A stretch of DNA of 64,000 nt, taken from Altererythrobacter sp. ZODW24. Lineage in GTDB: Bacteria; Pseudomonadota; Alphaproteobacteria; Sphingomonadales; Sphingomonadaceae. Positions within the stretch are counted from its first letter, which is position 1; each line of letters begins with the position of its first letter. The notes beneath the pieces are model-generated. The model had not been told where the DNA came from. It was given only the letters and a program-made list of their open reading frames with translations, and did not search any database. Shown one piece after another: positions 10,757 through 48,834 of the stretch. The position numbers were made by a program, and so were the translations under genes. The stretch covers positions 1,144,001 through 1,208,000 of the forward strand of contig NZ_CP031155.1 of NCBI RefSeq assembly GCF_003344885.1, read 5' to 3'.

Positions 10757-10765
10757 GAGAGAACA

Positions 10766-11566: not shown

Positions 11567-11569
11567 GCT

Positions 11570-23183: not shown

Positions 23184-23825
23184 ATGACATAGTCGCAATT
23201 TGATCCCGCAGCTCAGAATTGAGTTCCGTGGAATTTAGGCGCAAAGACTGGCCCCAAACGACCGTTCACCCAGAAACAAATCTGGGCAATCCGTTTCTTT
23301 CTTGATCGTGAAAAGCGCATTCGTGATCGGGCGCTCTTTGATCTGGCAATCGAAAGCAAACTGCGAGGCTGTGATCTTGTGGGACTAAAAATTGGCGATC
23401 TTGTCAGCGGGCCAGACATTCGGAGGCGTGCCGCGATCACCCAGCGCAAGACTGGCAGGCCCGTCCAGTTTGAGGTCGCAGCTGATGCGTGTGATAGTTT
23501 GTTCGCATGCCTCGAACTTCGAGGCGGCTCAGTTGAGGACTTTGTATTCCCCAGTCGGATCGATCATTCACGACATTTGAGCACACGCCAGTAAGCACGA
23601 CTAGTCGATGAATGGGTCGAAGCTATTGGTCTTAGAACTGAGGAATATGGAACCCATTCGCTTCGACGAACAAAAGCGTCGATCATCTACAAGGCGACTG
23701 GCAATATTCGAGCAATCCAAATTCTGCTTGGCCATTCGAACATTGAGAACACCGTCCGTTACCTAGGTGTCGACATAGCAGATGCACTTGACCTAGCGTC
23801 TCGAACTTGGGCGCAACGCCGATAA
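23184..23825 (+). pseudogene. Tyrosine recombinase (integrase) with three in-frame stop codons
   Basis: One frame of 213 codons reads as a small (about 200-residue) site-specific tyrosine recombinase, but has TAG at codon 3 (23190), TGA at codon 13 (23220) and TAA at codon 137 (23592). There is no frameshift. Readable family parts are RPFTQKQIWAIRFFLDRE, the first catalytic Arg in SKLRGCDLVGLKIGDLV, Lys in TQRKTGRPVQFEV, then STRQ-stop-ARLVDEW, the HxxR box THSLRRTKAS, and LLGHSNIENTVRYLGVD with the late His and nucleophile Tyr. The TAA replaces the Tyr usual in STRQYARL. AAGGAGA lies eight bases before the ATG. Catalytic residues survive, so decay is recent. Confidence 0.88.
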
Positions 23826-27800: not shown

Positions 27801-29424
27801 CGCAGAAGAGCGGGAGGCGGCTGCGCAAGCTTGGCTCGATACTCGATACGAGGCTGATCGCAAGGCGAAGGGTTTGCCAGACCTCGACACATTCGCCACA
27901 GCCGAGGAGCGCGCAGTCGCCTCGCAAGCTCGTCTCGACGCCGAATATGAGGCTGACCGAAAAGCCAAGGGCTTACCGGCCCTCGACACTTTTGCGACGG
28001 CTGAAGAACGCAAGGCGGCGTCGCAGGCATGGTTGGAAGCCCAGTATGAAGCTGATCGCAAAGCTAGAGGAATCCCAGACGCCGATAGATATGCGAACGC
28101 CGACGAACGGGGGGCAGTTGAACAGGCCAAATTGAACGCAAAGTACCAGGCGGCCTGGGAGGAACGGGGGCTGCCTTACCTCGACAATTTCGCGACCGCA
28201 GAGGAACGCAAGGAAGCGGCCGAGGCGAAGCTGAAGGAATATCAGGACAAAAAATTCGCCGAGCAGAAAGCCGACGAGGTCGCAAAAGCAAAGCAACCTG
28301 GAACCTATGAGTTCCGCACGAGCAAGCTTGAAACTTCGGAACTGGTGGTCAGTGAATTCGGCATCGAGCCGATCACGTTCGAAGAGGTGAATTTTGAAAT
28401 ACCTGTATTCGATAAGGACAACGACCTGTTCGACGAGGACGGCAATCTCAAGAAAGTTGGGCCAGACGATTTCGTGATGACCCCATTCGATCCGCCAGAG
28501 GCGAGTAAGTTCCCGCCAACTGATCCAGATGATCTTGATGGATATCCCGGAACCGGCGAATATCCCGCTTTCAGTTTTGAGAGCATGTCCGGCACAGTTG
28601 AGACTAAGTTAGACAGGTGGGAAGAATGGCTTGCGACCCAAGATGTCCGTAAGCTCACTCAGTTGGCGTTAGCGGCAGGCTATCCCAATTTGGCTTCAGC
28701 TTTGGCCGATGCAGAAAACATCATCCGTATGTCTCAGGATGAAGGGTATCGGAGATGGGCAAGAACTGCCCCTAGCTGTACCGGTTCTAACGGCTGTGGT
28801 CCTCAATATCTGGAGCGCTGGGCGATGAAACGATCAATCGTCGGACTGGGGGACATTCTTGCGCAGAGTCGCGGAATTTTCTCCTCTGGGGGCTTCACAG
28901 ATATCGGCGTCTCAGGCTTCAACCTGATGTATGTCCTGCGCGATTTTGGTATCCAGGATGGGGATTTGATTGATGTCGAGATTAGCCAGTTCGGACGAGT
29001 GATCGGTCAGTTGAAGGGTCACTTCCTGCTTACTGCAGGCAGCCCGTTCAATGTCCGACTGCGTCCAGGTGTCGCCCAGATGGTCATCTCCGCGCTCAAT
29101 GAAGGCTCAGCATCTCCCAATACCGCCGAAGTCACGATTCAAAACGTTGTACGCGGCGATGGACGGCAAACCTACTCGCTTGAAACGGGTCAAACAGCAG
29201 TTCTGCGTATTGAAGCGGGGGCCACCGGTGGAAGCATGCAATCCTCAAGCAATGGTGGTCAAGGAACATCGGCGCTGTCAGGTACAGTCACTTCGGCAGC
29301 AGGATCACGCATTGGCTCGCCAGGCGTTCAGGGAGCTCCGCCGGAGCGTCGACCTGCCCCACCGTCTAGGCCAGCGGCCCCACACATGCGCGACCCTAAC
29401 GGCCCGCGTCCTGACATCCGCTAA
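24835..29424 (+). CDS. Giant secreted repeat protein, unknown function
   Basis: A 1,529-residue protein that I cannot assign. A signal peptide (hydrophobic run SVAIAILACLTTPLAA, then EE) marks export. In order: a globular part (about 60-330) with LGVGRIRKGNRSISRFDYGDG; a Gly/Ala-rich part with a duplicated GARAMT..SSQ.T.GR motif 52 residues apart (363 and 415); a long helical part (about 500-720); a hydrophobic Gly/Ala/Ser stretch (about 760-810); a charged coiled coil; five 33-residue repeats (957-1121); a C-terminal part with the cysteines SCTGSNGCG and a beta-rich domain near 1350-1470; and a Pro/Arg-rich tail. It lies between a secreted protein and a beta-barrel gene. Confidence 0.85.
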   Translation: MTMTNQTLRFRQILKSSVAIAILACLTTPLAAEEREEAPSGDATAQSPAVIAVQSAPQVASIEERQSYALRLMTQVYNGTRDLSHTQMLGVGRIRKGNRSISRFDYGDGAVVIAPDVGQIAASRFMNVSGTEKQIVYNYDTKLIHGDPEIAAFHNSLVRPWLGNGPHLGQDASWVQNVPLSALGMPTVSGESIRIELSRTYFTHQGKPMVLVQYDIPAFSYDAGAGKMLVQWGRGIALTDPGFGMIYLNATLQRAVETRNGTPGKPYRFARNMVAANPDGSAMIDYREVEQLRGLIEPILGADAMMIVPVGSDDERADGRPLELGRRLDLLALSIGENGANEVPMAAGVQGASGRGNEVAGAIGARAMTNGGGVFVSSQGTRGRDLVAEEVTDQQAASGNAEDAGGRSDGGVDSLGARAMTDGAMPFGSSQDTSGRTVLADEAVDQQSSATGDPDFDLSPEMLERLEQSTQSGDLVSDAFDRVRGGGGDAAFGNQDPSTEGYAGPSTLDVVDGTGQVLKPVLGYADKANAITNGVLATETIRLTNLANDVGSKINAAGESYRQATVALKNSGAMKLTLMPGAELLLDTYNQTTGELGDLEQRINSLSSYLSDLTKQGAAIPPESIAETSKLVSQYNILYDKAEAQYRAFQGVSNKYVAVFDDTDPTTARLLKRVEERASDLYALEKVAVTLERDASALQKLARQLPVEQLQDVLKRFGDSPYGKVLDGVSHGMNGFTVGQSLYNIVDASSNDKSSGQLNLTRDHGLSSLVLDLTSLAGNAVSGNVSAFLSDATAITFGSVSDIILSGKALKDTHQLNARLLQQSREMDQRLSDMRHEKIANLGDFLDDVGTDLSALDQEIDDSVQRSKDLLEERRQARAELARQEQDEQDGQQLASAGREAENERRRTANDRLNNDLKHNYPTVDPSTIKVVKKDEGEYDGPPPSILPPATIAAIEREQRRQEAQDKLDAQYEADWNAKGLPPLDTFVNAEEREAAAQAWLDTRYEADRKAKGLPDLDTFATAEERAVASQARLDAEYEADRKAKGLPALDTFATAEERKAASQAWLEAQYEADRKARGIPDADRYANADERGAVEQAKLNAKYQAAWEERGLPYLDNFATAEERKEAAEAKLKEYQDKKFAEQKADEVAKAKQPGTYEFRTSKLETSELVVSEFGIEPITFEEVNFEIPVFDKDNDLFDEDGNLKKVGPDDFVMTPFDPPEASKFPPTDPDDLDGYPGTGEYPAFSFESMSGTVETKLDRWEEWLATQDVRKLTQLALAAGYPNLASALADAENIIRMSQDEGYRRWARTAPSCTGSNGCGPQYLERWAMKRSIVGLGDILAQSRGIFSSGGFTDIGVSGFNLMYVLRDFGIQDGDLIDVEISQFGRVIGQLKGHFLLTAGSPFNVRLRPGVAQMVISALNEGSASPNTAEVTIQNVVRGDGRQTYSLETGQTAVLRIEAGATGGSMQSSSNGGQGTSALSGTVTSAAGSRIGSPGVQGAPPERRPAPPSRPAAPHMRDPNGPRPDIR
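27703..28197 (+). repeat. Five tandem 99-bp repeats coding 33-residue helical units
   Basis: Units start at 27703, 27802, 27901, 28000 and 28099, with a partial sixth from 28198. The consensus is AEERxAASQAxLDAxYEADR followed by KAKGLPxLDTFAT. Each is a charged helix, a Gly-Leu-Pro turn and a short DTFAT linker. The inner units are most alike, the outer ones more divergent, as expected for growth by unequal recombination. Confidence 0.92.
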
Positions 29425-30406: not shown

Positions 30407-32785
30407 TCAGCCGTTGCAGCGCTTGAGAGCGACTTGCAATGGCTCGATACTGTTTTGCTGATCAACCGAAGAAATCTCAGCGCGCTCAGCCAAGGCATCC
30501 CATTCAGCGCGCGCGATGCGAAAGGCGTCACAGGCAGCCTTCGTCCGGCCAGTCTCTTCGAGCGTGTCAGCCAGCGTCTGGCGCGCAGTAATACGCTCTC
30601 GCAGGTAGCCCATATTGTTCGGCTCGCCGGCCAGTTTCTTGCTGCGCGCGGCGAAGGAACGTCGAGCCAAAGCGATGGCATCGTCATTTCTATTGAGTGC
30701 GAGCAAAACATAGATTTTCTGAGAGTGAATTGTGTCTAACCTCGATCGGGAGCCAGCATCATCCGGGTCACGACGAATGACGATATCGAGCAGCGCCTCG
30801 GCCTCTTCCAAATCCGCCAGAGCGTCTCTGGATCGGTTGATATCATTGTAGACTAACGAGCGCCTGAACAGAGCCGCGATCAGGCCCAATCTCCGGTCAT
30901 TGCGCTGCGCTTCGGGCCCATCGCGATACAGCTTCAGAGTGATGTCGTACGCCCTGCTGAGCGGAGGCAAGGAGGTCACAAAAGCCTCGCTTTCAACTGG
31001 ATAAGTCCACGACCTTGTGTAGCCAAGCTCCGAATTGACACTCGCTAATGCAACGAGTGCATCAGTCGAATTCTCAACGGTTGCGGGATCCTCTTCGATC
31101 TCGGCAACGAGAACTTCGAGTAGCTTGACGCCTTCTTCACCTTTCTCAACCCAGACAAGCGGTTTGGCCGCCTGCAATCGAGAGCGATACCAAGCAAGTC
31201 GATACGCGGTCGTTCCCGGGTCGGTTTCCATCAGGCTGCGATAGAGTTCAACCGAACGATTGCCGGCAACAATCGCGCCGTCATTGTCGTCATCAGCTAT
31301 GAACAGAAAGATCGAATTAGAATAAAACGCTTCAGCTAGTGCTTGGGTGTAATCTGGATCGCTGGCATCTTCCGCGTGCAATTGCTCAAGATCGAAAATT
31401 GCTCGATCGAGGGATAAGCGTGCCTCTTCCCTTCGACCCAGATTCGCGCCTTCGGGATTACCTAATACAGTCGATAGCCGATGATACCCGCGCGCAATCT
31501 CTAGCCTCAAGCCCGGCTCGAGGTCATCACCGGCACTCAGCCGTTCAAGATAGGTGCTGGCTTCGTCGGCAATCTGTGACAAAGCCTTGGTGTTGCCGGA
31601 GACTGGCTCTAGTTCATCATAAAGGTCGAAGAGCATGAATTTGGCGATCCCCCGCACCTCAGTGAATCGATCGTCAGCTTGGTCACGGGCGACCACTGCT
31701 TCCTGCCACCACCAACCTGTTGCGCCTGCTCCTACGAAAGTCGCAACTACAAGCGCTGCGGCGACGCTTGCCAAAAGTTGATTGCGGCTGACCCATTTGC
31801 GAAATCGATAGCTGATCGTGCCCGGATGCGCTCGGACGGGGCGACCATTGAGGTAAAGACGGATGTCCTCGGCCAACCGGTCCATCGCCAAATAGCGTTG
31901 CTCGGGTTGCTGGGCAGTCGCTTTGGCAATCATAGCATCAAGCTCGGCGGATCTGGGAGACGGAACGATCTCTTCGAGCATTCTGCCGGCCGAATAGATG
32001 TCACCTAGAACGGTGGTTGCTCCACCAGATGCCCTTTCCGGCGCTGCGTATCCAGGTGTCATGGTCACTGCGCGGATTGGCCTTGCTGTGCCAGGCGTGA
32101 CCTCCTCACCATCCGGTCGAGCAATTCCGAAATCAATCAGCTTCACCTGGCTATCGGTCCCGACTAGAACGTTCGATGGCGTCAAATCGCGATGGACGAT
32201 TAGATTGCGATGTGCATATCCAGCTGCCTCGCAGACCTGCAAAAACAACCGGAGCTTTTCCTCCACTGAGCGGACCTGCGCGTTGATCCAAGCTAGTAGC
32301 GGTATCCCGTCCACTCGTTCCATAACAATATATGGCTGCCCGTCCTCGGTGGCACCACCATCTAGCAAGCGTGTGATATTGGGGTGACTCAGTCGAGCAA
32401 GGATCTGTCGTTCACGATTAAATCGGTCAACCAACCGCTCGGATAGAATTCCAGGCTTGATCAGCTTGATGGCGACGCTGTGCTCGAAATCGCCCTCTTC
32501 GCGCTCAGCTGCATAGACGGTGCCCATACCGCCCGAGCCAATCGTGCCCGTAATGCGATAGGCACCAATCCTCTCAGGCGGCGGCAACGGATCGGCAGTT
32601 TCGATTGCCGCGCCGGTTTGAATGATTGGATCGGTATCAGCTTGCCAGATTTCGGTTACTCGTTGGTGCAGCGCATCGTCGCCGAGGGTCTGTTCTCCCA
32701 ACCAGTGCTCGCGCTTATCCTCGGCAATGTCGAGCATCGCTTCAAACAGAGTCAGGGCTCGGCGTTCAAGGCCGATATCACTCAT
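30407..32785 (-). CDS. Membrane-anchored Ser/Thr protein kinase with C-terminal helical repeats
   Basis: A 792-residue PknB-type kinase. The kinase domain (about residues 70-320) shows the glycine loop GSGGMGTVYAA, the ATP lysine in VAIKLIKPG, the catalytic loop HRDLTPSNVLV, DFG in LIDFGIARP and TPGYAAPE. The catalytic-loop residue that is normally Lys (HRDLKPxN) is Thr. A single membrane span follows (about 343-365, LVVATFVGAGATGWWW), then about 420 residues of TPR-like helices that would be periplasmic. The start overlaps the sigma factor gene by eight bases. It converges on the beta-barrel gene with 18 bases between. Confidence 0.92.
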   Translation of the reverse strand: MSDIGLERRALTLFEAMLDIAEDKREHWLGEQTLGDDALHQRVTEIWQADTDPIIQTGAAIETADPLPPPERIGAYRITGTIGSGGMGTVYAAEREEGDFEHSVAIKLIKPGILSERLVDRFNRERQILARLSHPNITRLLDGGATEDGQPYIVMERVDGIPLLAWINAQVRSVEEKLRLFLQVCEAAGYAHRNLIVHRDLTPSNVLVGTDSQVKLIDFGIARPDGEEVTPGTARPIRAVTMTPGYAAPERASGGATTVLGDIYSAGRMLEEIVPSPRSAELDAMIAKATAQQPEQRYLAMDRLAEDIRLYLNGRPVRAHPGTISYRFRKWVSRNQLLASVAAALVVATFVGAGATGWWWQEAVVARDQADDRFTEVRGIAKFMLFDLYDELEPVSGNTKALSQIADEASTYLERLSAGDDLEPGLRLEIARGYHRLSTVLGNPEGANLGRREEARLSLDRAIFDLEQLHAEDASDPDYTQALAEAFYSNSIFLFIADDDNDGAIVAGNRSVELYRSLMETDPGTTAYRLAWYRSRLQAAKPLVWVEKGEEGVKLLEVLVAEIEEDPATVENSTDALVALASVNSELGYTRSWTYPVESEAFVTSLPPLSRAYDITLKLYRDGPEAQRNDRRLGLIAALFRRSLVYNDINRSRDALADLEEAEALLDIVIRRDPDDAGSRSRLDTIHSQKIYVLLALNRNDDAIALARRSFAARSKKLAGEPNNMGYLRERITARQTLADTLEETGRTKAACDAFRIARAEWDALAERAEISSVDQQNSIEPLQVALKRCNG

Positions 32786-33401
32786 CGCGCAGTGGCCTCA
32801 ACAATGCGTCGGCCAGCCACGCGCGAGCAACCTGCCAACGCCGCTTAACAGTTGGTTCTGACCAACCCTTAACTTGTGCAATGTCACTCACGGTCATCCC
32901 GCCAAAATAGCGCATCTCGACAATCTCCGCGAAGCTCGGATCAATGGCTTCCAATCTGATTAGCGCGGAATCCAGCAAATGCAGATCAGTGGGAGGTACT
33001 CCAACAAGGTTTGTCCGCAGTTCGACTTTCTGATGTGCACGCTTACCTGAGTTTCTAGATCTCGCTTGATCAACGAGAACATTTCGCATGAGCCGGGAAA
33101 CCAAGGCGAGCAAATGGGCGCGATCGTTGATCGTGGGCTCCGCGGCCATGATTCTAAGCATTGCTTCGTTGATAAGGTCGTTGGTGGAAAGCGAGCTCAT
33201 CATTTCATTGCGAAGCCGCGCCACAGCTATCTGCTCCAACTCGGGCAGGACGCGTGCGACGAGCTGGTCACGGGCCGAGAGGCTTCCACTGCGCCAGTTG
33301 AGAATCAGCCTTTGCGTCTCCAACTTGTATTCTCTCCCGCTGTCTGACGCATTGGAAATGCTCTTACCGCGAGGATACAAATTTCGCAGTTTAGGGTGCA
33401 T
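32778..33401 (-). CDS. ECF-type RNA polymerase sigma factor paired with the kinase
   Basis: An extracytoplasmic-function sigma factor of the kind found next to Ser/Thr kinases (the TIGR02999-like group). Region 2 is in LSARDQLVARVLPELEQIAVARLRN..LINEAMLRI and MRNVLVDQARSR; region 4 is EIVEMRYFGGMTVSDIAQVKGWSEPTVKRRWQ, a clear helix-turn-helix. No anti-sigma gene is adjacent; the kinase gene overlaps its end by eight bases. In Vibrio parahaemolyticus an ECF of this type is switched on by phosphorylation by its kinase. The start is uncertain: ATG 33401 is used, while TTG 33323 has a better GGGAGAG site and fits the fold. Confidence 0.88.
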   Translation of the reverse strand: MHPKLRNLYPRGKSISNASDSGREYKLETQRLILNWRSGSLSARDQLVARVLPELEQIAVARLRNEMMSSLSTNDLINEAMLRIMAAEPTINDRAHLLALVSRLMRNVLVDQARSRNSGKRAHQKVELRTNLVGVPPTDLHLLDSALIRLEAIDPSFAEIVEMRYFGGMTVSDIAQVKGWSEPTVKRRWQVARAWLADALLRPLRDE

Positions 33402-33453
33402 GTATGCGGCAGGTTGGAGCGAAATGTAAACGCTGCACCATCGCGGCTTCACG

Positions 33454-33485
33454 AATGTCCGCTATTGGGTGGAAAGCGGACGTTC
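33454..33485 (+). repeat. Dispersed hairpin repeat, copy at the sigma/HTH-operon boundary
   Basis: AATGTCCGCT (33454-33463) pairs with AGCGGACGTT (33475-33484) with one wobble, around the centre ATTGGGTGGAA. This is the cleanest copy in the window. It sits between the divergent sigma-factor gene and the HTH operon. Confidence 0.75.
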
Positions 33486-33535
33486 GACCCTATGATCTAA
33501 ACACCCGCTTCAATGTAACATGACTTACTTCTTGA

Positions 33536-33574
33536 TGTCCGGTGAACCAGACACTATGTCCGGTAAACCAGACA
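33536..33574 (+). promoter_or_regulatory. Two tandem 18-bp palindromes, likely operator of the HTH operon
   Basis: TGTCCGGTGAACCAGACA (33536-33553) and TGTCCGGTAAACCAGACA (33557-33574) are near-identical imperfect palindromes (TGTCCGGT against TGTCTGGT) with centres 21 bases apart, about two helical turns. They end 17 bases before the first gene of an operon that encodes its own helix-turn-helix protein at 34211. That arrangement suggests autoregulation by two dimers on one face of the DNA. Confidence 0.65.
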
Positions 33575-33590
33575 CGGAGATCGTTAGCCG

Positions 33591-34214
33591 ATGCCAAGAA
33601 GTATCATTATCATATGCGGCGCGTTAGTTTTCGGATTACTGCTAGCTCTGTTGTCCCTCGAATTGAATTTCCCGACTGGCTGGATCGGCGCGCTGGCTCT
33701 CGTCGCATGGACCGCATGGTCATGGAGGCGATGGGCAGAACTGGAAAAAACAACCGGACTGGAACCGGGTGCGCCTGAAAGAAATGTGCGTTTCTATGCT
33801 GTTGGCACTGCACTACTTTTTGGGCACCTAATTGCGACGCTCGCTTATCCGGACATCGACCTTCACGTCGGCCACGGGAATTATCTCGCGATAGATTCAT
33901 GGACAATGCTTGCGGCGATGATTGGCGTGAGCTTCGTTGTTAGCAAGGCGGGCACCATCCGCGATGAGCGCGACGAAACGATTATAGCGCGCGGCACAAA
34001 AGCGGGCTTCGTGTCCTTGATCGCAGGCCTAGTCGTATTTTCGTTTATCATGGGATTTCTGCCGCCAGTTCAGGGGAAATCACTGACGCTTTTCATGGCC
34101 GGCAATATTCAGATTGCGATAGTTGTCGCGTCGTTATTGATCAAATATGCAGTCCAACTGATTGAATATGCCAAAGACACCAATGCCGATAACGCCATCG
34201 GTCCGAGCGAATGA
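33591..34214 (+). CDS. Integral membrane protein encoded with an HTH regulator
   Basis: A 207-residue polytopic protein with about six membrane segments ([99 protein letters not shown]). The loop [19 protein letters not shown] recalls the DERE/DERD loop of small membrane proteins that are co-encoded with YozG-like regulators in other bacteria. Function unknown. The stop overlaps the next gene (ATGA), and two tandem palindromes lie upstream. Confidence 0.8.
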
Positions 34215-34471
34215 CTGCCCTTCAGATCGGCAATAACATTCGCCGGTTCCGCTTTGACCAGGCCGAAATGACGCAGGCGCAACTGGCCGAAATCGTAGGC
34301 GTCACACGCCAAACAATCGTGGCCCTGGAAACGGGCCGATATGCACCATCTCTGGAACTGGCCATGAAATTGGCAGCAGCATTCGCGTGCACTGTCGACG
34401 CGCTATTTTTTTGGAAAGACACAGAATTTGGGCGCGCCGATGCGCAGCCCAAAACCGAAAAGGATTCATGA
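34211..34471 (+). CDS. XRE-family helix-turn-helix regulator (YozG-like)
   Basis: An 86-residue protein that is almost entirely a Cro/C1-type HTH domain: [47 protein letters not shown], followed by [13 protein letters not shown]. It overlaps its neighbours by four bases on both sides, so all three genes of this small operon are made together. It is the obvious candidate to bind the two palindromes at 33536-33574. Small regulators of this type normally repress their own operon; that is family knowledge, not shown here. Confidence 0.92.
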
Positions 34472-35385
34472 TGACCAAGTCACTTAAGCTGATAAAGTGG
34501 GCAGGCCTTTTGATATCGGCATTAATCGTTTTGGCAGTTAGTTTTTATGCTTATCTGGTTCTCAGCTTTGATGATCAAAATCTCCCGGAGAACCATGGCA
34601 AAGTTAATACTGAGCTCTTTCTGGGTAGCGGTGAAAATCAACCTTTGATCGTGGGCTTAGGTGGGTCCGAAGGCGGAAACGCTTGGGCTAGCGACTTTTG
34701 GAAAGGTCAACGCGACGAGTTCATCGCTCAGGGTTACTCGTTCTTGGCAGTGGCGTATTTCGGTGAGAAGGGTACACCGGAAAATCTGGATCGGATTGCA
34801 TTGGAGTCCGTACATCAAGCAATTCGCGAAGCAGGTAAAAATCCTAAGGTGAACGGCGAATGCACCGCGCTGATCGGTGGCTCCAAGGGGGCTGAATTGG
34901 CCCTATTACTGGGAAGCCAATATGCCGACATCGATGCTGTAGTCGCGATAGTCCCCGGAAATGCAGTGTTTCCTGCACTGACCATTGCAATGAACACCCC
35001 GTCATTCACCTTGAACGGGAAGGACCTACCTTTTGTGCCAGTTCCTTCAAGCGCTACATGGCCGCTGATCAAGGGAGATCTAAGGGCAACTTGGGAAGAG
35101 ATGCTGAAAGATCAAAAAGCCGTCGACAGAGCGTCGATTGCGGTCGAGAAAATCAATGGCCCGATTCTTTTCGTATCTGCGACCAAAGATGAAGCATGGC
35201 CCTCAACAGAAATGTCTATCTCGATGGAGCAGCGCCTTAGAAAGAATGAGTTTCCATATTATTTTGAACATATTGCAATCGAGGGCAGGCACACATCACC
35301 ACTTGATCACTTCGGTGAAGTTGAAGAGTTCCTCCGGACGAACTTTCTGCAAGGCAAGTCAGTTGGCTGCTTGAAATCGTCCTGA
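34468..35385 (+). CDS. BAAT/acyl-CoA thioester hydrolase-like alpha/beta hydrolase
   Basis: A 305-residue protein with an N-terminal membrane anchor ([25 protein letters not shown]) and an alpha/beta hydrolase domain of the bile-acid-CoA:amino-acid acyltransferase C-terminal type. Evidence is the entry [13 protein letters not shown], the nucleophile elbow [14 protein letters not shown] (serine), the acid in [11 protein letters not shown] and the histidine in IEGRHTSP. Substrate unknown; an acyl-CoA or other ester is likely. I use ATG 34468, which overlaps the HTH stop and has AAGGA upstream. It ends the three-gene operon, and a hairpin repeat follows. Confidence 0.85.
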
Positions 35386-35429
35386 GTTCCGAAACGCAGC
35401 TTCAAGCGAGCCTCGCACGAACCTGTGCC

Positions 35430-35484
35430 AAACGCCTGCTCTTGGGTAGTTTGCGGATTGACCGCTCATGGGTGGCAAGCGGAC
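35430..35484 (+). repeat. Dispersed hairpin repeat, double copy
   Basis: Two units in a row: CGCCTGCTCTTGGGTAGTTT-GCGG and GACCGCT-CATGGGTGGCA-AGCGGAC (35460-35484). The second pairs seven bases with one mismatch. It lies between the acyl hydrolase operon and the ABA4-like operon. Confidence 0.65.
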
Positions 35485-35667
35485 GCCGCACAGACCAAGT
35501 GAACAATCTCTAGTTATGAGATCTGATATCGAAACGAACTGGCCGGTTCGTGTGGAAATGGCATGGGCACTTACGCATGCACAGCAACTTCCAAGCCGTT
35601 GCCGTTGCTTTGATTGCATTGGCTAGACAGTTGCGCCCACTCACATTACCAAAATGAAAAGGACAAT

Positions 35668-36198
35668 GTGAATGGTATTCAGAGCTCCGCTATGTTGACA
35701 GCAGGGCCTACTTTGGCCGTTCCGCTCGAATCCCTGTTTGGCTATGCTGGACAAGCTGCGATGATCGGGTGGTTGATCCTGATTTTCCTGCCACGTCGCT
35801 GGCGTGCGCTGTTATTCGTCCCGCGCTTCCTCATCCCGTTCGGCCTCAGCATGCTCTATGCCGGATTGATTTTCACCCATGTATATACTGTCGATGGCGG
35901 GGGTTTTGGCTCGCTCGCGCAGGTGAAGGCGCTGTTCGGCAAAGACGAGTTGCTGCTGGCAGGGTGGGTGCATTACCTCGCCTTTGATTTGTTTATCGGC
36001 GGATGGATTGCGGTGCAGGCTGACAGGCTTGGGATCGCTCGGTTGATTCAGGCGCCGTTATTGGCGGCCACATTCATGTTCGGCCCGGTCGGCCTCGCGT
36101 TGTTTATGGTGATGCGCGTGGGCTATCGGCGAACGCTGGTCCAACCTCTGCAGGCCGAGCCTCAGAAGCTCCAGACCCGGCAGGAGGACGCTGCATGA
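35668..36198 (+). CDS. ABA4-like (DUF4281) membrane protein
   Basis: A 176-residue polytopic protein with about four membrane segments. The segment WVHYLAFDLFIGGWIAVQADRLG together with GPVGLALFMVMR is the recognisable core of the ABA4/DUF4281 family, which in plants is needed for neoxanthin formation; bacterial members are uncharacterised. I start at GTG 35668, which has AAAAGGA seven bases upstream; ATG 35692 is the alternative. The stop overlaps the next gene by four bases. No carotenoid genes are visible nearby. Confidence 0.85.
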   Translation: MNGIQSSAMLTAGPTLAVPLESLFGYAGQAAMIGWLILIFLPRRWRALLFVPRFLIPFGLSMLYAGLIFTHVYTVDGGGFGSLAQVKALFGKDELLLAGWVHYLAFDLFIGGWIAVQADRLGIARLIQAPLLAATFMFGPVGLALFMVMRVGYRRTLVQPLQAEPQKLQTRQEDAA

Positions 36199-37025
36199 CC
36201 GACTCCAATTCAGATGCGCCCCGGATGATGGCGTTGCTGCCACAACTGGATGACGATCACTTTACCCGGCTCATGCTGTGCACCGGTCTGTTCTTGCTCG
36301 CGGCTCTCGTCGTTTTCGTTCCGGTGTGGCTGCTCGATCCGCGTATTTTGGACAGCGCTGCCATCTGGACCAAACCCCAAAAATTCAACATATCATTGGG
36401 CCTGCATTTCGTGACCTTGGCAGTTCTCGCGCATCAGGTTCCACGCGCCACGCGCACCGGACCGCTCTTGATCGGGTTCGGCTATCTCGCAGTCATCTCG
36501 CTAGTGTTTGAGTTTGTGTATGTGAATGTGCAGGCGGCGCGCGGCGCGCGGTCGCACTTCAATATGGAGACGTCCGTCGAACAAATAATGTATGCCCTGA
36601 TGGGGCTCGGCGCGTTTCTTATGGTGCTCGTCGCCTTCGTTCTCGCGATCCAGATCTGGCGTAAAGGTGACCGCAGCAACCGAGGATTATGGCTCGGGTC
36701 GATTGTCGGACTGACCGCAGGCTTCGCCATCACGCTTGTGTTCGCCGGGCAAATGTCGAGCATCGGCCGGTTCGTTGGCGCACCGCTGAGCGGTGGCGGC
36801 GAGATCGTACCGTTTTTTGGCTGGTCGCGCGAATATGGCGATTTGCGCCCGTCGCATTTCGTTTCGCTGCACCTTATGCAAACGCTACCGCTTGCAGGCT
36901 ACATCGCGGATCGCCAAAAATGGCCTACTGTACCGATAGTGATCGGCCTTGGAGTGATGCAGATCGCGCTTGCAGTAGCGCTGTATATGCAGGCGTTGGC
37001 AGGGCAACCGTTCTGGCCTGCCTGA
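36195..37025 (+). CDS. Polytopic membrane protein paired with ABA4-like gene
   Basis: A 276-residue protein with about seven membrane segments (CTGLFLLAALVVFVPVWLL, FGYLAVISLVFEFVYVNV, ALMGLGAFLMVLVAFVLAIQIW, IVGLTAGFAITLVFAG and others). Polar residues within spans (KPQKFNISLGLHFVT, WSREYGDLRPSHFVSLHLMQTLP) look conserved and functional. No family recognised. Its start overlaps the ABA4-like stop by four bases, so they are coupled and probably work together in the membrane. Confidence 0.78.
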   Translation: MTDSNSDAPRMMALLPQLDDDHFTRLMLCTGLFLLAALVVFVPVWLLDPRILDSAAIWTKPQKFNISLGLHFVTLAVLAHQVPRATRTGPLLIGFGYLAVISLVFEFVYVNVQAARGARSHFNMETSVEQIMYALMGLGAFLMVLVAFVLAIQIWRKGDRSNRGLWLGSIVGLTAGFAITLVFAGQMSSIGRFVGAPLSGGGEIVPFFGWSREYGDLRPSHFVSLHLMQTLPLAGYIADRQKWPTVPIVIGLGVMQIALAVALYMQALAGQPFWPA

Positions 37026-37146
37026 ATTTTGCGTCGTCCCAACCTCTGCTGCAAGTGCGACTTAAGGATCGAGATCATCAAACCAGGCCTATCTCAATCA
37101 ATATGATCTCAGCGAGAGAAATTCGAAGCTTCAGTGTGGTTTCGTC

Positions 37147-37176
37147 AACGACCGCTATTGGGTCGTTGGCGGACGT
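37147..37176 (+). repeat. Dispersed hairpin repeat copy
   Basis: ACGACCGCT-ATTGGGTCGTT-GGCGGACGT, the closest to the general consensus. It lies in the 252-base gap between the ABA4-like operon and the convergent serine hydrolase gene. Confidence 0.7.
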
Positions 37177-37277
37177 CTCTGATCTTTACGCGACAGACAT
37201 CGATATTTGTTGGTAGCCGGAGAGGCTACTCTTACTCACAGCCAATCAATAATTGGAGAATGCAAATTCACTTCCAA

Positions 37278-38831
37278 TTATTGAGGGGCAGATTCTTCGC
37301 GAGCCCTCTCTTCCAAGGCGCGAAGCACTTCCTGTATTCGTGCATTATCTGGATTCAGCTCCAATGCCGCGCGATAGGCGGAGATTGCCTCTTCCCAGTC
37401 TTCGATTGCGGCGCGAGTCTCTCCTAAACTATCGAACGCATTCGCCGATTCCGGAAACAGCCGGGTGTTTAGGGCGAAAACGGCGACAGCCTCCTTCATG
37501 TCTCCCTGAGCTAGATAAGTATATCCCAATGTATTGATCTCCGATTCATTGAGTTTAGTGATTTTGCCTGAGACGATTTGCTCCTCAAACTCCTTGATCG
37601 CGCCTTCGAGACCGTGGCTCTGCTGAAGGTCGGCAAGGATCAAGTCGGCTGGGGTCTGCGGACGGGGCGGGCTAACTCCATAAGAAGCACGCACAAGATC
37701 TTCGCCAAGTCGAACGGTCTCGCCGTATGTTGCGCTGCCGATGCCACCGATACTATCCGCAGCGAAGACGATTAGTCCGGTCTCAGGAAAATACTGCAGA
37801 TTTGCTGTGTAAGGCGGTCCCCAGCCATCGTGGCCAATCGTCCGTACGTCGTTGCCATTCACGTCAATGGAAGAGGTGAATAGACCGTAGCCGATGAAAC
37901 TGGCGCCATTATATGCGACCGCGCGCGGGACCGTCATCTTTTCGAGGGTCTCGGTATTTTTGAAGAAGCGGTCGGAGAACAATGTTTGAAACCATTGAAC
38001 CATATCGCCGGCCGTTGAATAGATTCCCCCGGGGGCAGCCACGCCAACGAATTGACTTTGCGAGGCAGATTGGAACCCGCCCGACATCCTCACGTATCCA
38101 TCGGCTAGGCCTGGGACGACGGAGCGGTAAGAAAGCGTGCCGGAGTTTTTCATTTCAACTGGATCGAATATGTAATGCTGCAACGCCAGATCGAACGATT
38201 TGCCCAATTCGGCCTCAACGATCATCTGCAAAAGGATGTAATTGGCATTACTGTAACTGTAATTTTCGCCTGATTTGAATTCGAGCGGTTCGTCGATAAA
38301 CGTATTCGTCATGTCTACCAGGCTGACTTGCAACACAGCCATGCCCGCAGCCAGCACACGAGCCTGAAGCGCCTGATAAGGAGGTTTGTACTGGTAGTTC
38401 GGAATTCCCGAGCGATGACTGAGCAACTGGTCTACAGTTACCTGCGCCGAGGGTTTGCCCGCAAATTCTGGCAGAATTTCTGCGACCGTCTGCGACGTGC
38501 TCAACAGCCCTTCCTCTTCCAATCGAAGAATCAGCGCAGAGGTGAAGGGCTTGGATACTGATGCGAGGCGAACCTTGGTATCCAACGAATACGGCACGTC
38601 AAAGGGAATGTTCGCCATACCGAACGCCCCTTGGTATAGAATTTCGGAAGTTGTTGCGACAATCACAACGCCGTCGAATAGCTTGGCATCATGATATGAC
38701 TGTGCGATTTCGTCAGCTACAACAGCATAATTCGCAGGGCGGGCATCGGGGACAGTTTGTCCTACCGCTGGAACCGAAAGCCCCGCAAGGCAAATCACTG
38801 GGGCAAGTAAGCGGCAAGTTATGGTCGTCAT
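37278..38831 (-). CDS. Secreted serine hydrolase (beta-lactamase class C fold) with TPR tail
   Basis: A 517-residue exported protein. After a signal peptide (LLAPVICLAGLSVPAVG) comes a class C beta-lactamase/CubicO-type domain with the SxxK nucleophile in LASVSKPFTSAL, the YxN motif in YSYSNANYILL and HDG in IGHDGWGPP as the third motif. The last 110 residues are TPR-like (LGYTYLAQGDMKEAVAVFALN, SLGETRAAIEDWEEAISAYRAAL). The start at 38831 follows AAAGGAGAGG; an upstream ATG is less likely. Third gene of a gntR-hydrolase-hydrolase set, 48 bases after the previous one. Substrate unknown; such proteins are mostly esterases or peptidases. Confidence 0.88.
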   Translation of the reverse strand: MTTITCRLLAPVICLAGLSVPAVGQTVPDARPANYAVVADEIAQSYHDAKLFDGVVIVATTSEILYQGAFGMANIPFDVPYSLDTKVRLASVSKPFTSALILRLEEEGLLSTSQTVAEILPEFAGKPSAQVTVDQLLSHRSGIPNYQYKPPYQALQARVLAAGMAVLQVSLVDMTNTFIDEPLEFKSGENYSYSNANYILLQMIVEAELGKSFDLALQHYIFDPVEMKNSGTLSYRSVVPGLADGYVRMSGGFQSASQSQFVGVAAPGGIYSTAGDMVQWFQTLFSDRFFKNTETLEKMTVPRAVAYNGASFIGYGLFTSSIDVNGNDVRTIGHDGWGPPYTANLQYFPETGLIVFAADSIGGIGSATYGETVRLGEDLVRASYGVSPPRPQTPADLILADLQQSHGLEGAIKEFEEQIVSGKITKLNESEINTLGYTYLAQGDMKEAVAVFALNTRLFPESANAFDSLGETRAAIEDWEEAISAYRAALELNPDNARIQEVLRALEERAREESAPQ

Positions 38832-38879
38832 CTGTCCTCTCCTTTCGAGGGGCATTCCAGGTGAGGGCTGGCACTCAAA

Positions 38880-40634
38880 TTATTGGCGCCTCAACGAAGC
38901 GATCAATACATCGCCAACAATGTTCTGCCGCCATTTGCCCCATATGTAGCCTTGGCCATAATTTCCGCCGGTCATGGCGACGACCAGATCAAATTCAGGC
39001 ACGACGACAACAATCTGGCCCCCATTCCCGCTCGCTTCGTAAGATTGATAGGTCTCCCCTCCAACGGAGATCTGATGCCGGTGCCATCCATATCCATCTT
39101 CGCCTCCGAAATAGAAATTGGAGAATCCGGTTTCATCCAATCCAGTTGTTTCTGGAGTAATCGCAACCTGCTTAGCTGTGGACGCCGCAACCCAGTCTTT
39201 GTCGATCAATTGCTTACCGGCCCATTTGCCTTGGTTCAGATATAGCTGGCCAATCTTCGCTAGGTCTCGCGTCCGCAGATATGCGCCACCTCCAAGGTAT
39301 GCTTCGCCGTTCGGCATCACATTCCAATAGGCATTCTGGAATCCTAAAGGCTCGAACAAACGCGTCTGCAGAAGTGAAAGAACCGATTCTCCGGTTGATC
39401 CAGCTAGGGCGGCCCCTATCAAGTTCATGCCGCCCGAGCAGTAGGCGTATCTCTCCCCGGGGGTCGCCGCAAAATCGAGTGCTGCGGTATATTCCCATAA
39501 ATTCGGGAATTCCCCTTGCTGCCACATGACATCTTCATGGCCGGCAGTTTGGCGGTTGCCATCGTAGCAGTCGAAGCCGCTTTGGTGAGTTAAGAGGTGA
39601 GAAAGAGTGAGGGGTTGCGCGTCAGGTTCGTTGGGTACCTCGATAAAGCGGTTGATCGGCGTGTCTGCCCCCAGATCGTGCCCTTCCTGCATCAGCGCTC
39701 CGACGAGGATCGACGCAAAAGTCTTCCCGGCTGATCTGATGTCATGGGGCTTGTCGCTGGTTTCGCTACGGAAGTACTCCTCAACGACGAGTTTGCCTCC
39801 TCGGGCCACCAACAGGCTATGAACCAGTTGTGGCTGTTCTTCGGCACCGCTTTCGTTCGCAATGGAGTTGATCAAGCTATGGATTGCGTCCCTGTCAAAC
39901 CCAGCTTCATCGAGCGACCCGACCGGCCAAGCCCCGTTCGAAGAAGGGGCCTCTAACTGTCTTTCTTCTCCCTCACCAAAGAAGTCTTTGGCCAGGTCAG
40001 CTGCCGGATCGATGAATTGCAATGCAAATTTCTCGATGGGTCCGAATCCCATCGTCAGGCTCTTGTCCGATGCGTTCAATTCCACCGACGAAAACTCCAC
40101 ATCGTCGTTTGGCGTGGAGAGAGAATACCGATCTGGCGCTTTTTTTGTGACCTTATACATACGCGAAGGGCCGGTGATATTGCGTTCTGGATTGAGCAAG
40201 GCAGCAACAAGGTGCTCCTCCGCCCGCTCTTCGACATTCATGAAGAGATTGAACGCACGGTCCAGCGGGGTCGCTATTCCCGTCCAACCGTTCTCAGGAG
40301 TGGCAACGAGCCGCGCCGCATGCGCGAGTCGTTGCCCCCCCACTGAATTGGCTGGTTGAATATAGAACCCGTCGATTTGCTGATCGCGGTCAGAGAATGA
40401 GCCCGCAAAGCTAGCGCCATTGTCGAACTTAATGGAAACCTGGTCTACGGCTGCGGCAATTTCTGAGGCGCTGAACCTCTCGCCTTTCCGATCCTCACGG
40501 GCGTAATGTATTTCGACCGCCGTTCCATCATCAGGCTGTAATGTGCCAAGCCATAGACCTTCGATCCCGGAATTGGTCGGCGCACAGGCAGATACCGTGA
40601 TTAAAGATAGGGCAGAAAGCATCTGTAATTTCAT
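38880..40634 (-). CDS. Serine hydrolase lipoprotein (beta-lactamase class C fold)
   Basis: A 584-residue protein with a lipoprotein signal (MKLQMLSALSLITVSAC). The first 230 residues form an extra beta-rich domain of unknown role; the CubicO-type hydrolase domain follows with SxxK in IRSAGKTFASILVG, the tyrosine motif as YAYCSGGMNLIG (YCS instead of YxN) and a C-terminal GNGGQ. The hydrolase domain resembles esterase-type members. The start overlaps the GntR stop by four bases (ATGA), so expression is coupled to the regulator. Substrate unknown. Confidence 0.87.
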   Translation of the reverse strand: MKLQMLSALSLITVSACAPTNSGIEGLWLGTLQPDDGTAVEIHYAREDRKGERFSASEIAAAVDQVSIKFDNGASFAGSFSDRDQQIDGFYIQPANSVGGQRLAHAARLVATPENGWTGIATPLDRAFNLFMNVEERAEEHLVAALLNPERNITGPSRMYKVTKKAPDRYSLSTPNDDVEFSSVELNASDKSLTMGFGPIEKFALQFIDPAADLAKDFFGEGEERQLEAPSSNGAWPVGSLDEAGFDRDAIHSLINSIANESGAEEQPQLVHSLLVARGGKLVVEEYFRSETSDKPHDIRSAGKTFASILVGALMQEGHDLGADTPINRFIEVPNEPDAQPLTLSHLLTHQSGFDCYDGNRQTAGHEDVMWQQGEFPNLWEYTAALDFAATPGERYAYCSGGMNLIGAALAGSTGESVLSLLQTRLFEPLGFQNAYWNVMPNGEAYLGGGAYLRTRDLAKIGQLYLNQGKWAGKQLIDKDWVAASTAKQVAITPETTGLDETGFSNFYFGGEDGYGWHRHQISVGGETYQSYEASGNGGQIVVVVPEFDLVVAMTGGNYGQGYIWGKWRQNIVGDVLIASLRRQ

Positions 40635-41302
40635 GAATTCTCTTTCTTTTGATCAAGCCGGCTCGATAGCCAATCTAGAATTGGTTCCTTCCCGGTCGTT
40701 AGATTTTGATGCAGCGCCTGTGCAGCTCCAGCGAGATCCTGCTCACGGAGCGCTTTTATGATTTGTGCATGCTCATCACCCGCGACGGGGAGTCTTGGTG
40801 TCTCGCGGAAGAGAGCCAACTCGTAGCGCCGGGTCCGGGCCATCATGTTCTCAATGATGTCGAGCAACACTGTGTTTGAGCATCGACCCCAGACAAGCCG
40901 GTGGAAATGCTCGTCTGCGTCGATCATGGCTGGGCCAGCTTCGGCGTCAAGAAAGGCCTGATTGGCCTTTTCGATCCTGTCGATTTCGGCCTCGTTGGGT
41001 TGCTCGCCTAGCAGCAGCGCCTGCGGATCGAGAATGGGTCTCACATCATACAGATTGCTAAATTCCTCGGTAGTAAACTCCCGCGCAAAGAAACCGCGGC
41101 GGGGAATGACTTCCACAAAATGCTCCGCAACCAGATGGCCGAGTCCCTCTCTCAAAGGTGTGCGGCTGATCCCAAGGCTCTTTGACAAATGGACTTCATT
41201 GATTCGCGAGCCATCGGGGATAGCTCCTTCAATGATCAGGGATCGTATGGCGGATGCCGCTTGTTTGGAAATAGGGTCGGCGCGTGTAACTGTATACTGC
41301 AT
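40631..41302 (-). CDS. GntR-family (FadR/FCD type) transcriptional regulator
   Basis: A 223-residue regulator. The N-terminal winged HTH is visible in IRSLIIEGAIPDGSRINEVHLSKSLGISRTPLREGLGHL, and the C-terminal all-helical FCD domain contains EADEHFHRLVWGR, DADEHFH-type metal-binding residues, and DEHAQIIKALREQD. FCD regulators usually sense carboxylic acids. I start at ATG 41302; a GTG six codons upstream is possible. It heads an operon with two serine hydrolases, so those probably release or degrade its ligand. A palindrome overlaps the start codon. Confidence 0.92.
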   Translation of the reverse strand: MQYTVTRADPISKQAASAIRSLIIEGAIPDGSRINEVHLSKSLGISRTPLREGLGHLVAEHFVEVIPRRGFFAREFTTEEFSNLYDVRPILDPQALLLGEQPNEAEIDRIEKANQAFLDAEAGPAMIDADEHFHRLVWGRCSNTVLLDIIENMMARTRRYELALFRETPRLPVAGDEHAQIIKALREQDLAGAAQALHQNLTTGKEPILDWLSSRLDQKKENS

Positions 41303-41305
41303 ACA
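41291..41305 (-). promoter_or_regulatory. Putative GntR operator overlapping the gntR start codon
   Basis: TGTAT-ACTGC-ATACA is a perfect five-base inverted repeat with five-base spacer, placed across the ATG of the GntR gene. Size and placement fit an autoregulatory FadR-type site that blocks transcription or initiation. Confidence 0.5.
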
Positions 41306-41375
41306 ATTGATATAACGCACCCGATGAGGCTTACAAGGAGAAAGTGCACAGCAGTAGCTAATGCTCGTTTAGGCT

Positions 41376-41430
41376 AAACGTCCGCAAATGGGTCGTTAGC
41401 TGCCTGTCAGCTTATGGGTGGGAGGCGGTC
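41376..41430 (+). repeat. Dispersed hairpin repeat, double copy
   Basis: AACGTCCGC-AAATGGGTCGTT-AGCTGCC followed at once by TGTCAGCTTATGGGTGGG-AGGCGGTC. Two degraded units in tandem lie in the gap between gntR and the nitroreductase gene. Confidence 0.6.
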
Positions 41431-41512
41431 ATTGAGGCGCACGCTTCTAATGACGGCTATATCCTGAAAGCGGGCGTCAAACTTGTTGTTAGATCGGTCT
41501 ATTTCATAGTGT

Positions 41513-42610
41513 TCATACTGCCAAAACTGCATCGACTGTGCGCCGAAGTGACATTGGCATTGTCGGCCCATAGCCGAAGCGCATGACGATATTGGGACGC
41601 TGTCCTGGCATCCCAACCAAGGCAGCCAGTTCTGCGCGCAATTTCGAGACTTCAACAGGTTGATTGATATAAGCCTGCTTCAGCCCAAGAGCCGTAGCCT
41701 GCAAAGCAAACCGCTGACAGGCGCGGCCTGCTCTCACCCAATGTTCTGGATCATTCTTCTCTGCAACAAACACCGCAATGCCGGCAGAACCATTGATCTG
41801 ACCGGCATATTTTTCATTCTCGCTGTTTTCTCGAAACGCAAAATCAAAAATGCGACGTCCTATCCACGTGGGCGAACTGGGATTGCCGGTGCAGGCTCCA
41901 AATAGACCATCGCGCATTTTCATCGCGTCATTGGGATTGAAACGCACCCAATGCTTGAGCTCGTCGACAAAGTCCTTATCCTCCATCTGCGTGCTGTTTC
42001 CAGCCATCACCAGATCGCGGATGCGGTTCATCTGAGTCCTCTCAGTTATCAGGATCGTTGCGACACCGGGGATTTGCGATGCAGAAGACAGCAAGGCCAA
42101 ATTTGCACTACTGACGGGTCTGCTATCATAAACTGCTCTGGTCGATTGCCTCTTCGCAATAGCCCCAAACAAGGGAGAACGATCATTCCCGCCTGCCGCC
42201 ATCTCGACCACAACCTTGCCGCCCTCAGCCGAATCAAATCGAACCTCGCTCGTTCGATTGGCCGCTGTGCCTGCAATCATCAGATTTTCAGCCGCGCAGC
42301 CAAGGCTCGCGAATAAATGATGATCGTCAGGATCGACTACGGCCGTTCGGCGAGTAAAATCGGGCAGTATCTCAAAACTACTCCCCCGAACGCGAAACTT
42401 CCAAGGCTGGGTATTGTGGCCGTTGGCTGCCAACGTGGCATAGCGGATTAATTCACGGTCATCTGGCTTCACAGCAAGCGGCGCACGCAACTGTGCAACA
42501 GCATCTTCATAATCATCCATCGATCCCATTTGTTTCACTGCTACCGCGGCCGCAGTTCCGCCGGCGACGATCAGCGTTCCACTGCCAATCAATAGGGTGC
42601 GCCTGTCCAT
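41513..42610 (-). CDS. Acg-like nitroreductase-family flavoprotein with TAT-like signal
   Basis: A 365-residue protein with MDRRTLLIGSGTLIVAGGTAAAVAV at its N-terminus, a twin-arginine-type leader. The body reads as a nitroreductase-fold duplication of the Acg type: ATLAANGHNTQPWKFRV near residue 60, IAKRQSTRAVYDSRPV in the middle, and RAGRACQRFALQATALGLKQAYINQPVE late. Mycobacterial Acg binds FMN but is thought not to reduce nitro compounds, so a flavin store or sequestering role is possible. Export of the folded flavoprotein fits the TAT leader. It stands alone between two repeat copies. Confidence 0.85.
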   Translation of the reverse strand: MDRRTLLIGSGTLIVAGGTAAAVAVKQMGSMDDYEDAVAQLRAPLAVKPDDRELIRYATLAANGHNTQPWKFRVRGSSFEILPDFTRRTAVVDPDDHHLFASLGCAAENLMIAGTAANRTSEVRFDSAEGGKVVVEMAAGGNDRSPLFGAIAKRQSTRAVYDSRPVSSANLALLSSASQIPGVATILITERTQMNRIRDLVMAGNSTQMEDKDFVDELKHWVRFNPNDAMKMRDGLFGACTGNPSSPTWIGRRIFDFAFRENSENEKYAGQINGSAGIAVFVAEKNDPEHWVRAGRACQRFALQATALGLKQAYINQPVEVSKLRAELAALVGMPGQRPNIVMRFGYGPTMPMSLRRTVDAVLAV

Positions 42611-42920
42611 CCACTTTGCTCCTGCTCTTCAAAGAAAAATTCGTTCGAACAGGAATATGAACTCAATCTTGGCGCTCAAATACGTGTTGTAACTGACATC
42701 GCCTGGCCCCACCGGCTGCCTCATGGGTAACTTCCGCTCTCGCTCCGAACGCGGCAACTTGGATCGCACAAAGACGAACGGCCACAATTGGGTCGAGGGC
42801 AGTCTCCCCGGCTTGGTGAGGTAGAGCGTGCTCTATGTCTTTCTTATCGCTTAACTTAGGCATTTACTGCTTTATATCACCAATACACCAACATAATCTG
42901 TGGGTGAATTGGAGGGCGTT
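42611..42920. other. Gene-free stretch
   Basis: No supported gene. A minus-strand frame at 42663-42863 lacks a convincing ribosome binding site and protein-like composition. The only structure I see is the hairpin-repeat copy at 42776-42803. Confidence 0.5.
42776..42803 (+). repeat. Dispersed hairpin repeat copy, degraded
   Basis: GAACGGCC-ACAATTGGGTCGA-GGGCAGTC keeps the ATTGGGTCG centre, but the arms have several mismatches. It lies between the nitroreductase and the small membrane-protein gene. Confidence 0.5.
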
Positions 42921-43193
42921 ATGATGGCGAAAGCGCAAGCGGGAACGAGCGGCCATCCTAGCCGCGCATCTACACTTCGCACGATCTACCGTGTGCTGCG
43001 GTGGATTGTGCTAGGGCTGTTATCAATATTTGCGGCGCTGTCTTTAGTTTACGCGGGTTGGTTTTTCACCCGGAACTGGTCTTCCATGGCCGAGCGTGAA
43101 ATTTCTGCATTCTATGACAATGTCCTAGCTCATCACCCTGGGCCGGTAGACGCAGGTATTGGTGACGAGGGTTCAAGCGATCACGTTCTGTGA
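42921..43193 (+). CDS. Small single-span membrane protein, unknown
   Basis: A 90-residue product starting MMAKAQAGTSGHPSR with a single strong membrane span (WIVLGLLSIFAALSLVYAGWFF) and a polar tail (NWSSMAEREISAFYDNVLAHHPGPV). GGAGGG lies nine bases upstream of the first ATG, which is why I prefer it to the GTG at 42900. No family recognised. It is isolated and could also be the start of a truncated longer gene, since nothing protein-like continues after it. Confidence 0.55.
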   Translation: MMAKAQAGTSGHPSRASTLRTIYRVLRWIVLGLLSIFAALSLVYAGWFFTRNWSSMAEREISAFYDNVLAHHPGPVDAGIGDEGSSDHVL

Positions 43194-43498
43194 GTCAGTT
43201 CAAATCTCGCATGTCTGTCAATGCGTGTCAGAGAAAATTGGATCTGACCAACGCGAACGGCAGCAATTGGACAATGGACGGAGCAGCAGTTTGCGTTTGG
43301 AAGAGTGGCCTGACGGACTAGCGATTGAGTCGACAGCATTCAGTCACATGGATGTAAGAAATGCGACGGACCGGAATAGGCTCAAATTAGAAGCTGCAAC
43401 CTTGATCAGGAGGCGGGTGCTAGCCAGCTTGCTCCAGCATTTGTGACTTTGCAGCATCAAAATACCCGCGTACTTTGTATGGCAATCGGAGAAAGTGA
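43194..43498. other. Gene-free stretch
   Basis: I see no supported gene in these 305 bases. A plus-strand frame at 43159-43446 overlaps the small membrane-protein gene and has no ribosome binding site. A degraded copy of the hairpin repeat (GAACGGCAGCAATTGG and following) is visible near 43247. The promoter of the following gene must lie here, but I cannot place it. Confidence 0.45.
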
Positions 43499-48707: not shown

Positions 48708-48834
48708 TCGAAAATGTCAGAGCTCCACCCGGATAGCGGCATTAGACAGTTTCTGACTGACCTCCTTGGGTCGATTGCGGCAATCGTGGTCCGATCCTTG
48801 CCAATGTGTTTCGTAAAGTTGCGATAGCCCTGCG

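Follow-up and report, generated by a model that had tools for sequence, protein, structure and literature searches.

The window analysed here, a stretch of 64,000 nucleotides (bases 1144001-1208000 of the 2.81-Mb single-contig genome of the alphaproteobacterium Altererythrobacter sp. ZODW24), carries copies of a short repeat at the boundaries of several small operons, and the question raised by this locus is what the repeat does there. An original prediction, made from the letters alone, had compared the region with a cassette array in which each unit is bounded by the same structured site, perhaps recognised by an integrase family whose remnant has a copy alongside. Our analysis leads to a similar answer: the repeats probably serve as core recombination sites in a cassette system (we put this at about three in four), one most likely worked by a small Xer-like tyrosine recombinase. 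The cassette-array reading is supported by many relatives, in which sites of the same direction enclose one open reading frame (ORF) per interval.

The repeat is 30-31 nt long, with the consensus AATGTCCGCAATTGGGTCGTTAGCGGACATT. It consists of a pair of inverted arms, 12 bp each, separated by a 6-bp spacer that is asymmetric, AATGTCCGCAAT-GGGTSG-AAAGCGGACATT, or in its degenerate form AATGTCCGC-AA(T)T-GGGTSG-(A/T)(A/T)A-GCGGACATT, and the spacer occurs as GGGTGG, GGGTCG or GGGCGC. Inverted arms flanking an asymmetric spacer are the layout of tyrosine-recombinase core sites such as lox and dif. Array regions from about 12 genomes (0.90 Mb), scanned with a position weight matrix (PWM), gave 410 matches vs 3 in the reversed sequence, which was scanned with the same matrix as the null. 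The pattern as originally written, GTCCGC-N-TTGGGT-N-GCGGAC with single Ns, has no literal match, but the repeat that it was intended to describe is present with the longer consensus. Neither a search of Rfam with the repeat nor one of viral contigs with the site pattern gave a match. The 30-mer often contains an ATG and a frame open both ways (MSAMGGKRT... / MTAFDPLRT...), for example in L220, in L219 and at 13175 of the window. Automatic gene callers may thus begin hypothetical proteins within sites; in our simple ORF set, 1 of 162 longest interval ORFs starts inside one.

In the host genome, about 32 copies were found at E<0.03. They are clustered, with 11 adjacent pairs less than 5 kb apart where 1.7 would be expected (p 5e-5), and in each of these pairs both sites are on the same strand. 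Inside the window, the copies predicted at 33454, 35430, 37147, 41376 and 13829 were borne out, the second as a site at 35457+ with a degraded partner at 35431+ and the fourth as 41377+. Those proposed at 42776, 48758 and 23085 were recovered as a weak site (42777+), a doubtful one (48756+) and a split one, and the supposed degraded copy near 43247 (E 0.37) ranks with chance matches and was not accepted as a site. The copies at 33 to 43 kb do share one direction: every site of this array is on the + strand, with units 1-2 on + and units 3-4 on -. The single self-contained operon per interval also holds between 33.4 and 42.8 kb, with units that comprise one to three genes and occur in both orientations.

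The same arrangement was observed on a larger scale in other genomes. Adjacent sites less than 3.5 kb apart are on the same strand in 220 cases vs 33 in the arrays of the same dozen or so genomes (203:18 without genome G411), and the median site-to-site interval is 656 bp. In a second set of 120 public loci, taken from pattern-scan matches and thus chosen by site presence and not by direction, with a few loci from genomes of the first set, the figures were 218 vs 9, with 21:0 in Brevundimonas and 10:0 in Caulobacter; Caulobacter sp. 17J80-11 (NZ_JACSJI010000004.1) carries a nine-site array. The longest ORF filling an interval points in the direction of the sites in 42 cases and opposite to it in 68. 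In locus L088 of genome G166, for example, about ten co-directional + sites enclose one ORF per interval, on both strands (Table 1). Since adjacent sites agree with each other while the ORFs face either way, site direction is a property of the array and not of the genes. Replication-strand bias was discarded as the cause of site direction, because this direction is constant per array and varies among arrays.

The two ends of an array also differ in their spacers. First sites carry GGGTGG in 54 cases vs GGGTCG in 9, last sites GGGTCG in 51 vs GGGTGG in 13, and in G166 the last sites carry GGGCGC in 7 of 8. Some junctions are double sites, in which GGGTCG is followed after 25, 35 or 71 bp by GGGTGG; in genome G222 the double site is a conserved sequence of about 101 bp, and the window has two double sites with 26-bp spacing (35431/35457 and 41377/41403). 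Inverted double sites of 58/82 bp were seen in G411 (L090, L091, L092, L166), unlike the remaining genomes examined. The contents of the arrays are shuffled: 103 cassette ORFs matched 67 Pfam families, almost every one once, including GNAT acetyltransferases, immunity proteins, domains of unknown function, P450 and histidine kinases. A PADLOC defence search gave one match among these 103 ORFs.

In duplicated cassettes and at two window loci compared with a congener, homology breaks off within the sites. In G166, one cassette is present twice in locus L153 (7090-7609 and 8676-9195), and the copies are 97% identical and have different neighbours; at the left site the common sequence begins at AGCGGACGTC and runs rightwards only, and at the right site it extends to GCGG. 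Additional cases of divergence within the site were found in G222 (L160) and G255 (L096), and, when pooled, the points of divergence lie on either side of the base triplet that follows the spacer, GGGTSG^AAA^GCGG. The original prediction would have been refuted by presence/absence breakpoints in relatives lying away from the repeats, and it stood up to this check at two window loci in a comparison with the congener G002. The window is collinear with G002 over 1-22.7 kb (about 75-82% identity), except at 12.4-13.8 kb, and the homology ends at 13835 and at 23102, each inside a site. At 13829, G002 carries a decayed site and then a different gene; at 23085, its site is intact, with GGGGCGC as spacer, and the window agrees with this site as far as the spacer extends and then continues with the integrase-remnant region instead. 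The comparison covers these two loci, G002 having no counterpart of the 33-43 kb units. We also observed that the 3' end of window gene 11570-12409 has another, incomplete copy in G002 (C1, near 430972-432397), beside site-like sequences.

The candidate enzyme is represented in the window by the remnant at 23184-23822, which belongs to a family of small tyrosine recombinases found in 85 of 249 genomes of the bacterial family. Its members match the catalytic half only of XerC/XerD/XerA, with matches that begin at model residues 94-129, and the profile search met no core-binding N-terminal domain of the Xer/IntI kind; longer open frames, of as many as 360 aa, also occur. The residues R56, K84, H153, R156, H179 and Y188 are invariant in 20 sequences and make up the R-K-H-R-H-Y catalytic set of tyrosine recombinases. 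The predicted structure had a mean pLDDT (predicted local distance difference test score) of 66, and hence was not used in fold searches. At 49 recombinase loci (19 from hand-picked genomes and 30 from a family-wide search), sites were found within 300 bp of the recombinase ORF 41 times vs once in the reversed sequence, several of them at fixed distances (3' +105-109, 5' -83). A site is present at 14 of the 30 family-wide loci vs 1 of 78 control loci, the latter being the surroundings of nitroreductase, metW or mreB (p 1e-8). Furthermore, a matrix trained only on three recombinase-free genomes detected sites beside the recombinase at 23 of the 49 loci, and none in the reversed sequence. In G166, divergent arrays begin on either side of the recombinase, and in G415 and G411 the flanking sites on both sides are oriented towards it. 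Intact members of the integrase family named in the original prediction are bracketed by sites. In G255 (Croceibacterium salegens), contigs C12, C15, C30 and C52 each end in a partial copy of the recombinase, the four being nearly identical, which suggests a recently multiplied, assembly-breaking element.

From these observations we infer the following course of events. The inverted arms of about 12 bp (AATGTCCGCAAT / AAAGCGGACATT) would be bound by recombinase subunits, and the direction of the site would be fixed by the asymmetric 6-bp spacer (GGGTGG, GGGTCG, GGGCGC). The exchange of DNA within or beside this spacer would be the work of a tyrosine recombinase, the likeliest being the small Xer-like one, so that circular one-gene cassettes could enter a site in a single orientation and be excised again between direct sites. 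The outcome would be arrays in which unrelated genes, read either way, follow one another head to tail, and whose polarity may come from a terminal-site spacer that differs from that of the first site. The window would then hold an old array of this kind next to a dead copy of the recombinase.

Several results weigh against this explanation. Genomes G222, G261 and G297, with 70-89 sites each, lack any member of the recombinase family, and it is here that the assignment of the enzyme is weakest; either the recombinase was lost from them, or it acts in trans, or another enzyme is at work. The site directions of G411 are mixed (17:15) and account for nearly half of all exceptions. There is no one crossover base common to all breakpoint cases, some lying to the left and some to the right of the bracket, a scatter that would be expected from a staggered exchange. 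At the 20 loci elsewhere that are homologous to the window nitroreductase cassette (unit 4), no site was found, and the window array is itself old and degraded. Finally, in G297 the mutL-mreB interval holds a two-cassette array with three sites, while in 29 congeners it measures 112-157 bp and has no site. The 1.2-kb insertion (L373, 111-1344) ends about 150 bp outside the outer sites; copies of an 11-bp direct repeat, TTATTGACATG, flank it, and near both ends there are TGTGAAAAC motifs, a motif not found near other arrays. The breakpoints of this array do not fall at sites. The G297 array came within a larger insertion, and the arrival of arrays and the exchange of cassettes inside them may be separate events.

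The recombinase-free genomes also count in favour of the first alternative, that the host XerC and XerD recombine cassette arrays at dif-like sites, as with the dif modules of Acinetobacter, and that the small recombinase is a mere cargo gene. The three genomes carry other tyrosine recombinase genes, and the plan of the site, arms with a 6-bp spacer, would suit XerC and XerD. Nevertheless, the arms do not resemble dif when compared by eye, and the small recombinase is flanked by sites at fixed distances even in site-poor genomes, which other genes are not, so that we regard this alternative as unlikely.

Less probable still is that the repeats are the ends of HUH/Y1 single-strand elements (IS200/IS605-like, or repetitive extragenic palindromes with their associated tyrosine transposases, REP/RAYT), with a Y1 transposase acting on a left GGGTGG and a right GGGTCG end. 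Each site is predicted to form a hairpin, with z-scores of -4.9 and -7.1, and the units do run from GGGTGG through genes to GGGTCG; elements of this class typically have their two ends oriented alike. Against it, the breakpoints fall in the middle of the site and not outside the hairpin, the sites are associated with a tyrosine recombinase (no search aimed at Y1 transposases was made), and the arms of one site show no covariation beyond shuffles. The missing covariation argues against an RNA role or a conserved hairpin role in general; it fits arms drawn from different neighbours by shuffling, although decay would give a similar picture. Least probable of all are dispersed intergenic repeats with no mobilising role (terminators, REP-like), the genes being shuffled by homologous recombination. 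The copies are indeed intergenic and share 30 bp that could support such recombination, but this is short and full of mismatches, and neither a direction constant per array, independent of genes and different among arrays, nor the first/last spacer polarity, nor the integrase bracket is accounted for.

Coming back to the cassette system worked by the small recombinase, its relation to known systems can be considered. According to a paper on archaeal integrons (PMC9668308), Alphaproteobacteria have no integrons at all. As in integrons, our arrays consist mostly of one-gene cassettes with unrelated contents, the sites form single-direction arrays (220:33 and 218:9 same-strand), a tyrosine recombinase with adjoining attachment sites (3' +105-109, 5' -83) stands at the array, and there are also arrays without recombinase, comparable to clusters of attC sites lacking integrases (CALINs). 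Unlike in integrons, the recombinase has only the catalytic domain and is not IntI (TIGR02249 20-23 bits vs a cut-off of 265; best matches XerC/XerA), the cassette ORFs face both ways, and the sites are 30-bp and lox-like, with none of 391 presenting both the RYYYAAC and GTTRRRY boxes of attC. Integron cassettes are inserted through a single folded strand of their site; the sites here can also fold, but their arms do not covary. The arrays are integron-like in their apparent working, yet they are not integrons by membership, as both IntI and attC are lacking. In Acinetobacter, dif modules are genes between Xer-type sites (two arms and a short spacer) that are shuffled as modules (PMC6449649). 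Those pdif modules resemble our arrays in having genes flanked by two-arm, short-spacer sites; most of them are carried by plasmids, and they depend on XerC/XerD of the host, whereas here the sites are direct repeats with symmetric arms, in chromosomal arrays and accompanied in many genomes, though not in three array-rich ones, by what seems to be a recombinase family of their own. In size, domain content and Pfam family (PF00589), the recombinase is like other catalytic-domain-only enzymes (XerC-like C-terminal domain, FimB/FimE-type invertases), its closest solved relative by sequence being the XerD catalytic domain; unlike these, it is bracketed by apparently cognate cassette sites, and no invertible promoter was seen. 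Among open-licence papers, we found no description of the site or the system, and the site strings occur in no relevant paper.

The site is unevenly distributed over the 397 genomes examined from this family: the majority are without it and a few have many copies, nine site-rich genomes holding 41-89 sites each by profile counts. When 84,980 species genomes were scanned for the pattern, the matches listed included Sphingomonadales and Caulobacterales (Brevundimonas, Caulobacter, Phenylobacterium), as well as one Acetobacteraceae metagenome-assembled genome and one Massilia.

The coordinates of the features are collected in Table 1. Some further observations concern the surroundings of the sites. 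At the edge of the island, the 3' end of the tRNA-Leu(gag) gene (22659-22690) is partly duplicated 204 bp downstream (22863-22894), a duplication that resembles an old attachment site. The accessory region also encodes a 1529-aa protein with no Pfam match (24835-29424), near a kinase/ECF (extracytoplasmic function) sigma pair (30407-33452), and right after the 33454 site there are two tandem 21-bp copies of TATGTCCGGTRAACCAGACAC (33535-33575). In the metW neighbourhood of other genera, no lipoprotein neighbour was found.

Table 1. Sites, cassette units and neighbouring features of the window, and the interval ORFs of locus L088 (G166).
Feature	Coordinates	Strand	Remarks
Site, spacer GGGTTG, last-type end of one-gene cassette	13175-13205	-	Strong copy, absent from the original prediction
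217-aa ORF filling cassette	13176-13829	+	ATG inside the 13175 site; no Pfam match; not at this place in G002
Site at the first-type end of cassette 13176-13829, spacer GGGTGG	13829-13859	-	G002 homology ends within
tRNA-Leu(gag)	22592-22678	+	Edge of accessory region
Split/decayed site adjoining integrase remnant	23085-23151	-	E 0.12, marginal alone; intact G002 site at same place
Broken small tyrosine recombinase copy	23184-23822	+	Three in-frame stops
Site, spacer GGGTGG (first type)	33454-33484	+	
Unit 1: membrane protein, HTH_3 regulator, BAAT_C-type hydrolase	33591-35385	+	
Tandem site pair	35431-35487	+	35431 degraded; 35457 spacer GGGTGG
Unit 2: ABA4-like protein, 276-aa protein	35614-37025	+	
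Site, spacer GGGTCG (last type)	37147-37177	+	
Unit 3: two beta-lactamase-fold serine hydrolases, GntR/FCD regulator	37278-41320	-	Strand opposite to sites
Tandem site pair	41377-41433	+	41377 GGGTCG; 41403 GGGTGG
Unit 4: nitroreductase-family protein	41513-42610	-	Strand opposite to sites
Weak site, spacer GGGTCG	42777-42807	+	
Very weak, doubtful site	48756-48785	+	PWM 12.5-13.4, exceeds reversed-sequence null
L088 interval ORF 1	8276-8536	-	Between two sites
L088 interval ORF 2	8713-8958	+	Between two sites
L088 interval ORF 3	8994-9293	-	Between two sites
L088 interval ORF 4	9368-9835	+	Between two sites
L088 interval ORF 5	10025-10438	-	Between two sites
L088 interval ORF 6	10496-10924	+	Between two sites
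L088 interval ORF 7	10960-11238	-	Between two sites
L088 interval ORF 8	11281-11688	-	Between two sites
L088 interval ORF 9	11903-12322	+	Between two sites

Taken as a whole, we lean towards regarding these arrays as a second, independently evolved gene-capture system of Sphingomonadales and Caulobacterales, with lox/dif-like sites, a polarity coded in the spacer and a minimal Xer-like recombinase of its own. If this is true, the source of many short orphan genes in Sphingomonas, Erythrobacter, Brevundimonas and Caulobacter relatives would be explained, and the 30-bp site would provide a simple handle for listing many mobile genes. The one-domain recombinase with its lox-like site would be a possible tool, and the system would offer a second example on which ideas about the evolution of integrons could be tested.

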